A program made the position numbers and the translations under genes. DNA of 43,978 nt from a virus: positions 1 to 43,978 of IMG/VR virus record IMGVR_UViG_3300032046_000057; one strand, given 5' to 3'. The notes under the pieces were generated by a model, which was not told where the DNA came from, searched no databases, and was given only the letters and a program-made list of their open reading frames with translations. Positions 1-43,978 of the stretch are shown piece by piece; the stretch's first letter is position 1, and each line of letters starts with the position of its first letter.

Positions 1-187
1 TAGCTAGGGCCAAGCAACTCCTGGGTATGAGTATAAACTGCCCAACAAATCGTATCTTTAGTCCATCACCCGGACGCAATCCTTACCAGTAATCGTGAAC
101 AGATTGAGAATCGTGGGGATTTTCAACTGGTAAACATCTGAGTTGCACAGAGTGGGTGATGGACTAAGAATATGAAATTATGACCTC
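1..187. repeat. Left copy of 187-bp terminal direct repeat
   Basis: Bases 1-187 match 43792-43978 in the same orientation with only two differences: t128 against g43919 and g155 against a43946. The copies therefore mark the closing point of a circular map or a short direct terminal repeat. Both differences fall inside base-paired arms of the inverted repeats described at 59-166, and in both cases this left copy keeps the pairing while the right copy breaks it. An exact k-mer overlap from an assembler would not carry mismatches, so strain variation, read error at contig ends or a true repeat remain possible. Confidence 0.9.
59..166 (+). other. Long nested inverted repeat, candidate structured RNA or DNA site
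   Basis: Three nested helices can be drawn. The outer helix pairs TAGTCCATCACCC (59-71) with GGGTGATGGACTA (154-166), 13 perfect pairs. A middle helix pairs GCAAT (76-80) with GTTGC (142-146), with one G-U pair. An inner helix pairs TTACCAGT (83-90) with ACTGGTAA (126-133), 8 perfect pairs. The terminal part (91-125) has small GATT/AATC hairpins. The element ends 13 bases before the start codon at 180, which has no clear ribosome-binding site. It could be a 5' leader structure, a small RNA or a DNA-level site. I recognise no known RNA family. Confidence 0.45.
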
Positions 188-37990: not shown

Positions 37991-38236
37991 ATGACTTTCC
38001 CTATCATTTCCAAATCTGCTCCACCTTATCCCCCAATCTCCCTCACCTATCCCAATATTTTCATTCTCGCAACCCAGGCACCAGATGAAGATTTAGCTTA
38101 CTGGCCTGATCCTGCAATCACATCACATGCTCAATTTAATCTCATTTATATGCACAACATCTATCCTGAGCATCCAATGGATTTTACAGAAATGAGAATG
38201 GTTCTCCTCTTTGCGTACTATTTCACAACTTGGTAA
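37991..38236 (+). CDS. Hypothetical small protein
   Basis: This 81-residue protein has a Pro/Ile-rich N-terminus (PIISKSAPPYPPISLTYPN), a middle with APDEDLAYWPDPAI and a hydrophobic end (MVLLFAYYFTTW). No family is recognised. Weak GGAATC before the ATG. It sits 15 bases after the previous gene, in the early cluster. Confidence 0.5.
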   Translation: MTFPIISKSAPPYPPISLTYPNIFILATQAPDEDLAYWPDPAITSHAQFNLIYMHNIYPEHPMDFTEMRMVLLFAYYFTTW

Positions 38237-42978: not shown

Positions 42979-43623
42979 ATGACCGACCAAAACCAAACCG
43001 CCAAAATCGTTCCTAACTTCGACAACACCGTGGAATCGGTTGCAATGAAGTTTCGTTTCAAGAAGGATAAGCTGGATTCGCAGCGTCCTACTGTCGAAAT
43101 TTCTGCTCTGGTTCCTAGTCTCGAAGGCATTGTTGCAATCCTGGAATCTGGCGATGCCAAGCAGCAAGAACTGCTGAAAGAGGCAATGTACAATGTGATC
43201 CGTGGCGCAGTTGCTGCGGATGTTGCTGAAGATGAAACGTTTAGTCAAGAAACCTTTGACAAGGACTTTGCTAAGAAGTATTCGTGGGGTGCAATTGCTA
43301 ATCAGGATCGTGCAGATCGTCGTGCAACTTCCATCACTGCCGAATCTTGGGCTGCTTTTGCTGCTGATTATGTGGAAATCATGCCAGCAGTTGCGAACAA
43401 GAAGAAGGAAGCTGTGGAACTGGCAGCCAGTGTCTTTGTGAAGAAGTTCTCCTCGGTTAAGACCAACAAGGAAATCCTGGTGGTTCTCAAGAACCAACTG
43501 GCTCTCTATGTTGAGCACACCAAGAAGGGCGAGGAATTCAGCGAGATCATTGAGGTGCTGACTAAGAAGCTGGATACTTACATGAAGGCTGATGATCCTG
43601 CTCTGCTGCTGCAGGGTCTGTAA
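42979..43623 (+). CDS. Abundant early protein of unknown function
   Basis: This 214-residue protein has an initial FDNTVESVAMKFRFKKDKLD, a helical acidic middle and a C-terminal helix bundle (ITAESWAAFAADYVEIMP, EIIEVLTKKLDTYMKADD). No domain is recognised. Codons are biased to a restricted G/C-ending set, like the capsid and SSB-like genes, and the best promoter of the genome precedes it, so it is probably made in large amounts early. No Shine-Dalgarno is seen (aaaatc before ATG). It may be a distant paralogue of the 35640 product. A DNA- or RNA-binding or host-takeover role is possible. Confidence 0.7.
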   Translation: MTDQNQTAKIVPNFDNTVESVAMKFRFKKDKLDSQRPTVEISALVPSLEGIVAILESGDAKQQELLKEAMYNVIRGAVAADVAEDETFSQETFDKDFAKKYSWGAIANQDRADRRATSITAESWAAFAADYVEIMPAVANKKKEAVELAASVFVKKFSSVKTNKEILVVLKNQLALYVEHTKKGEEFSEIIEVLTKKLDTYMKADDPALLLQGL

Positions 43624-43643: not shown

Positions 43644-43799
43644 ATAGTGTCTGAATGCCTCACTATCCGAGCAGTTTAGTTTTAACTAAGACTGCTGATC
43701 CCCTTAACAACGCGGTTAGATAGTGCAGTTAGTAGGTAAGACACTCCCTGATATAGAGCAATCACCTAGCTAGTTTCATGTCGGAGTGTACTAGCTAGG
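43644..43799 (+). other. Structured non-coding region with hairpins and possible pseudoknot
   Basis: After the 43623 stop come ATAGTG/CACTAT (43644-43649, 43661-43666) and a hairpin GCAGT-TTAGT with ACTAA-g-ACTGC (43671-43695). Further on, ACACTCC (43741-43747) pairs with GGAGTGT (43783-43789), and CCTAGCTAGT (43765-43774) pairs with ACTAGCTAGG (43790-43799). The last two helices interleave, with their 3' arms directly adjacent: the layout of an H-type pseudoknot. No T-run follows. A 22-codon ORF (43655-43723) without a ribosome-binding site lies within. No known RNA family recognised. Confidence 0.4.
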
Positions 43800-43978
43800 G
43801 CCAAGCAACTCCTGGGTATGAGTATAAACTGCCCAACAAATCGTATCTTTAGTCCATCACCCGGACGCAATCCTTACCAGTAATCGTGAACAGATTGAGA
43901 ATCGTGGGGATTTTCAACGGGTAAACATCTGAGTTGCACAGAGTGAGTGATGGACTAAGAATATGAAATTATGACCTC
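43792..43978. repeat. Right copy of 187-bp terminal direct repeat
   Basis: This copy matches 1-187 except g43919 and a43946. In it the inner 8-pair and outer 13-pair helices of the nested element each lose one pair. It ends inside the start of the first gene (ATGACCTC), confirming that the plus-strand arm continues across the junction. Confidence 0.9.

Follow-up and report, generated by a model that had tools for sequence, protein, structure and literature searches.

Two predicted types of structured leader RNA at one gene start in a group of related phages

The window analyzed here, a virus record of 43,978 bases, contains a structured element at positions 59-166 (+ strand) that forms the last part of an intergenic leader and lies directly 5′ of a gene for an 86-aa protein. 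As judged by sequence comparison, elements of this kind, which we call type A, are shown to be selected as folded RNA, with variable closing-helix arms and invariant loops. Related phages are likewise shown to carry either a type A or a second predicted core, type B, in the same slot. To our knowledge, few structured RNAs with a control function have been described from lytic phages, most of them in T4 and the lambdoid phages. The comparative evidence argues for two or more new RNA families that related phages exchange at a single start site.

The element in the window and its surroundings

The leader comprises ~350 noncoding bases, read across the repeated ends of the record, from the end of a 214-aa gene (42979-43623, +) directly 5′ of it to the start of the 86-aa gene (180-440, +), whose homologs lie downstream of the leader in relatives. 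The 86-aa gene heads a ~10-kb run whose other members include exonuclease, Sak4-like, DNA polymerase, and primase genes. Its product has no Pfam, PHROG, or clear PDB relative, and the predicted fold (pLDDT 82) has no match at E 0.001 or better in PDB or BFVD; the best VIA matches, Stn1 (Z 5.8), SpoVS (5.4), and KhpB (4.7), are all below trust level. The gene has no Shine-Dalgarno sequence, which is nothing special, as 13 of 32 tested window genes are without one. From its sequence the phage is podovirus-like. The terminase, a distant relative (~30-38% identity) of those of Aeromonas phage P5, Polaromonas phage Tiera, and the Pseudomonas PaP2/119X group, lies ~10 kb from the leader on the opposite strand; PaP2 is listed under Fredfastierviridae.

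The preliminary description of this DNA had proposed a 108-base element of nested helices, and folding confirms it. The predicted fold of 59-166 has an energy of −43.9 kcal/mol, far below that of 200 shuffled sequences (mean −25.9 kcal/mol, z −5.51, 0/200 as good), so the element passes the shuffle control that the description had called for. Both the 13-pair outer helix (59-71/154-166), hereafter P1, and the 8-pair inner helix (105-112/118-125) are present in the minimum-energy fold as described. The middle helix is also there, although with eight pairs (83-90/126-133) rather than the five claimed. Two small hairpins had been overlooked, 72-74/80-82 with the loop CGCAA and 134-135,137-140/148-151,152-153 with the loop AGTTGCA. 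Inside P1 the element is thus built of hairpin 1, GGA-CGCAA-TCC (72-82, +), invariant in the alignment of six type A members; of P2 with two inner hairpins, 92-104 and 105-125 (together 83-133, +); and of hairpin 3 (134-153, +), whose core CTG-AGTTGCA-CAG has a loop strongly conserved in the alignment. If mismatches are allowed, P1 can be lengthened to arms of 22 bases each (50-71/154-175) with 86% complementarity. No Rfam 15 covariance model matched the window or 17 related loci at gathering score, and the leader gave a single match to Rfam at E up to 10, a snoRNA at 13.8 bits that we take as chance.

The element occurs twice because the ends of the record repeat. Positions 1-187 equal 43792-43978 except at two bases, 128 (T; G in the right copy) and 155 (G; A in the right copy), as had been reported. 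The claim that both differences break a pair in the right copy also stands, since 128 pairs with 88 and 155 with 70. Two random substitutions would both fall on paired bases with a probability of 0.19. The right copy (43850-43957, +), with its two broken pairs, folds at −34.5 kcal/mol (z −2.95, 2/200 shuffles as good), a loss of 9.4 kcal/mol, and random double substitutions weaken the fold as much with a probability of 0.011. The family model R1 scores the left copy at 80.1 bits and the right copy at 72.8, the left copy having helped to build R1. In one relative, L015, a compensatory change (U-A) preserves the pair 70-155. Given the fold loss and lower R1 score of the right copy, and this compensation, the functional form would seem to be the left copy.

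In related contigs of 43-45 kb the leader is internal and at varied places, with the 86-aa gene at 38,079, 7,736, and 33,639. The end repeat is therefore best read as the place where a presumed circular assembly was cut. Neither of two other roles that had been proposed for the element, a recombination site and a packaging-related site, is supported by these comparisons: the arms are wholly different between relatives, the terminase is distant and on the opposite strand, and the leader lies internally at different places in the related contigs. More generally, an element acting as DNA (a replication origin, a recombination or packaging site) or an assembly artefact could be suspected from its position in a contig end repeat, its near-palindromic nature, and the two bases that differ in the right copy. 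The varying arms and the internal position of the leader in relatives speak against this, as does GC skew, which has no switch at the element and switches near 23 and 36-37 kb. We regard a DNA-level origin of the signal as extremely unlikely.

Type A and type B cores in related leaders

Related loci were collected by a search with the 214-aa protein (5 loci) and a search with an alignment of the 86-aa protein (23 loci), on contigs that partly overlap. In most of these loci the two genes flank a leader. Type A was defined as P1, GGACGCAATCC, P2, and a CTGAGTTGYACAG-like hairpin, with P1 covarying, and has six members, the window and five other phage contigs (L015, L016, L021, L023, and L025), L023 and L025 being close to each other. 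The window belongs to this type, with an R1 score of 80.1 bits over 61-160, and is among the sequences from which R1 was built. Common to all members, with little or no variation, are GGACGCAATCC and a CTGAGTT(G)YACAG-like hairpin; their closing arms differ.

RNAalifold finds 23 consensus pairs over the six members, 13 of which are changed on both sides. In P1 (seven pairs, six members) all 42 of 42 cells are Watson-Crick, compared with 47% when arms are swapped between members, and in P2 the count is 40/48 compared with 52%, bearing in mind that swapped-arm controls leave shared ancestry in. The suggestion that this might be an RNA element in the leader of the operon starting at 180 is borne out by the five further contigs, in which strand and neighbouring genes are unchanged and the helices show compensatory changes. 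These findings point to type A as a putative undescribed RNA family at the leader of the 86-aa gene. A GCAA/TTGC loop-loop contact fits the window and L023 and, weakly, L025, but not L016 and L021, and is not claimed.

Wider scans returned little else. The type A DNA pattern in viral contigs gave 0 stretches with a gap of 50-80 and two with a gap of 80-110, both in already-known contigs. The 86-aa profile gave 112 candidate stretches in genome contigs with no relative among them. Among named phages, neither the leader (blastn) nor the 86-aa protein (tblastn) had a match. In Polaromonas phage Tiera, EBPR podovirus 3, Aeromonas phage P5, and Pseudomonas phage PaP2, R1 found nothing convincing; the single match among these four, at 8.3 bits (E 4.1, covariance-model E-values being rough), is taken as chance.

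Type B is unrelated to type A and occupies the same leader in 16 contigs, one of which, L021, holds both. It is defined by P1, (A/C)TGGTAAC, P2, and a AGCATAAAA core, usually followed by a third hairpin and then by the 3′ strand of P1. The set consists of ten related loci and six found by pattern, 16 kept from 17 candidates after L156 was dropped as chance. The pattern scan gave 24 matches, of which 11 were kept under the criterion of a P1 of at least 13 pairs directly at the core; of the 13 dropped as chance, 12 had a P1 of 5-9 pairs and the other, L156, an irregular one of 13. Two matches to R2, the type B model, were also not counted: L164 213-317 (21.5 bits), which is without the type B core, and L095 (25.6 bits), which looks like a diverged type B. 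The window has no R2 match and is not of this type, and R2 found no match in Tiera, EBPR podovirus 3, P5, or PaP2.

Type B P1 also provides evidence on the pairing molecule. Over 13 pairs in 16 members (208 cells), 181 are Watson-Crick, 24 G.U, 3 A.C, and 0 other; with arms swapped between members the values are 47.6% Watson-Crick, 17.3% G.U, 9.3% A.C, and 25.8% other. The excess of G.U over A.C, 24 to 3, indicates the plus-strand (gene-sense) RNA, so that in type B the sense-strand RNA is shown, by this bias in predicted pairs, to do the pairing. The same bias favours RNA over any role played at the DNA level. P2 (15 members) is Watson-Crick in 83/90 cells, compared with 37% swapped.

Together, 21 contigs have type A or type B. 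The 86-aa gene was found in all of these but L171 (20 contigs), and the 214-aa gene in all but L153, L157, and L164 (18 contigs). Leaders without either type by these patterns are those of L005, L007, L009, L022, L027, L029, L030, and L095, with L020 and L028 cut off. The interchange of types A and B suggests that a virus gene cluster may be under a form of RNA control not described before. A compact element with a terminal closing helix, invariant loops, and strong stability might also be a separate small RNA acting in trans, e.g., as a decoy or regulator, that lies before the 86-aa gene by chance. However, pattern scans find the element only in this leader, and many type B elements sit directly at the start codon, and we consider a trans-acting small RNA very unlikely.

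The closing helix and the start codon

Counted from the innermost pair, the 3′ strand of type B P1 has an ATG at index 16 in 12 of the 16 members, at index 17 in L157, and at index 31 in L164. L013 and L021 have no ATG in P1, and L164 is counted with them despite the ATG at index 31. In seven members (L003, L006, L017, L018, L019, L024, and L153) this ATG is the start of the 86-aa gene; in L171 and L080 it opens ORFs of 33 and 30 codons, respectively, that are not the 86-aa gene. Separately, we observed that the ATG opens an ORF of exactly seven codons in L004 (3788-3830), L012 (1129-1170), and L169 (8347-8390). P1 contains the start codon or ends 0-7 bases 5′ of it in L003, L004, L006, L017, L018, L024, L153, and L157. 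From these positions, about half of the type B members have the start codon within the closing helix or immediately next to it. The fixed spacing of the ATG may in part be due to descent.

The extended P1 of the window ends 4 bases before the ATG at 180. In the other five type A members P1 has ~7-11 pairs and ends roughly 20-170 bases before the start, with a pseudoknot in between in L016 and L021. As type A P1 is thus short and distant, gating of the start codon is shown by anatomy for type B and not for type A generally.

This anatomy is the ground for our leading reading, and for type A also its main weakness. The element would act in cis, as part of the leader of an mRNA headed by the 86-aa gene, and its closing helix, covering or abutting the start region, would gate translation; we hold this with about even confidence. 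In the window, the long closing helix would hide or position the ribosome-binding region. How often translation occurs might then be set by a factor that binds the invariant loops, either a small molecule or a protein of host or phage, perhaps the 86-aa protein. No alternative pairing of the leader RNA was identified; an upstream strand competing for the 5′ arm of P1 in L013 and L018 was, by a rough estimate, not above chance.

The arrangement is reminiscent of riboswitches and other junction-type leader RNAs, in which helices meet at conserved unpaired bases and a variable P1 lies near the start of the regulated gene. It differs in that the present RNAs are without an Rfam match or an identified expression platform, and in that two cores share one slot. 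The operators of T4 genes 32 and 43 and the structures at the start of T4 gene e are also phage leader RNAs near the start codon of a replication or lysis gene, gene 32 with a pseudoknot upstream (PMC3014915). Their sequence and layout are other than those found here, and the window pseudoknot is widespread and placed at many gene boundaries. A literature search, mostly of records without full texts, found no description of these leader RNAs.

In place of translation, RNA polymerase might be the target, with the leader RNA modifying it for terminator readthrough in the long replication operon as HK022 putRNA does. PutRNA is likewise a structured RNA heading an early phage operon, and acts on RNA polymerase. 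PutRNAs are ~70 nt with two stem-loops and act in cis over 10 kb (PMC9378689). The leader here heads a gene run of 10 kb and its modules are free in order, and consensus scans for promoters and terminators found none in it, the lack of a terminator-like site agreeing with readthrough. The lack of a promoter-like site upstream does not agree with it, nor does an anatomy unlike that of put; downstream terminators were not located, and the fixed ATG would be unexplained. We think an action on RNA polymerase quite unlikely.

A pseudoknot and further leader modules

Next to the type A element, and not part of it, lies a 28-base H-type pseudoknot, ACTC-C-TGGGT-AT-GAGT-ATAAACT-GCCCA (17-44, +), recognized by an exact pattern match and by covariation in its family. 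The strict pattern, S1-C-S2-AT-S1'-WAAAACT-S2', finds at least 120 stretches in viral contigs. Its free pair is complementary in 80/80 matches of 79 loci examined (L033-L111). Over 133 distinct contexts, pair −2/11 is Watson-Crick in all 133 and pair 5/21 standard in 132, each with four pair types. In most loci the pseudoknot lies between genes, often 8-40 bases 3′ of a stop codon, and in L046, L064, and L072 it lies 3-9 bases before tRNA genes. In bacterial genomes the pattern occurs at 23 loci (L182-L204), with the pair kept in 22. Many of the bacterial pseudoknots, from Peptococcaceae, Omnitrophota, and others, lie after a very short ORF, or overlap its end, the last residues encoded being VAHCKGGC or similar. 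No Rfam family was found for the pseudoknot, and its pattern has no match in Tiera, EBPR podovirus 3, P5, or PaP2.

With its one-base loop 1 and A-rich loop 3, this H-type pseudoknot presumably resembles PK1 of E. coli tmRNA. Neither ARAGORN nor Rfam finds a tmRNA in the window, and none was found in 48 pseudoknot loci scanned. Unlike PK1, a variant of the pseudoknot in the crAss-like phage cr7_1 sits in the spacer of a permuted tmRNA (L179 1201-1227).

Such positions, at gene ends in many phages, before tRNA genes, and in the cr7_1 spacer, would also suit a boundary of RNA processing or stability. RNase III-type helices and the pseudoknot would then part the 214-aa mRNA from that of the 86-aa operon and shield the RNA ends, with the loops binding a processing or protecting factor. 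Some leaders, e.g., those of L017, L021, and L027, have helices of up to 23-25 pairs; the longest Watson-Crick inverted repeat is at least 11 in 11/26 leaders vs 5/520 shuffles; and the order of the modules is not fixed. Plain RNase III sites, however, do not need the invariant loops GGACGCAATCC, CCTGAGTTGYACAGG, ATGGTAAC, and AGCATAAAA, and the fixed place of the ATG in type B would be left unexplained. A processing boundary is, on balance, unlikely.

The modules are arranged differently from phage to phage. L021 has type B, type A, and the pseudoknot in this order, and L016 has a pseudoknot, type A, and a pseudoknot. The window is the most reduced type A member, being without the inner hairpin (loop TTTCAT-TCGGAGTG) of L016, L021, L023, and L025. 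It has instead a free-standing hairpin (43765-43799, +) just upstream of the pseudoknot, with the loop TTTCATGTCGGAGTGT that lies inside the type A core of those four relatives, so that this module has moved. A further leader element, GTGTCTGAATGCC ... AGGTAAGACAC (43647-43744, +), is common to the window and L003 (743-846) and part of the leader fold. We tentatively propose, with somewhat less than even confidence, that the leader is a hot spot at which one phage group swaps and nests RNA modules that are independent of one another and undescribed (type A, type B, the TCGGAGTG-loop hairpin, the pseudoknot, and others) around one start codon. It would thus be a combinatorial RNA control region, and the pseudoknot a widespread undescribed boundary element of phage mRNA that also occurs in bacteria. 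The leader RNAs and the pseudoknot stretches would offer a testable set of phage RNA regulators.

A third conserved leader element, GATCAATAGCAGTTGAAA, is present in L006 and L009. Long perfect or near-perfect hairpins with other cores were also seen in this leader in L027 (1371-1445, ~25 pairs) and L164 (213-317, ~20 pairs), and are possibly further RNA types.
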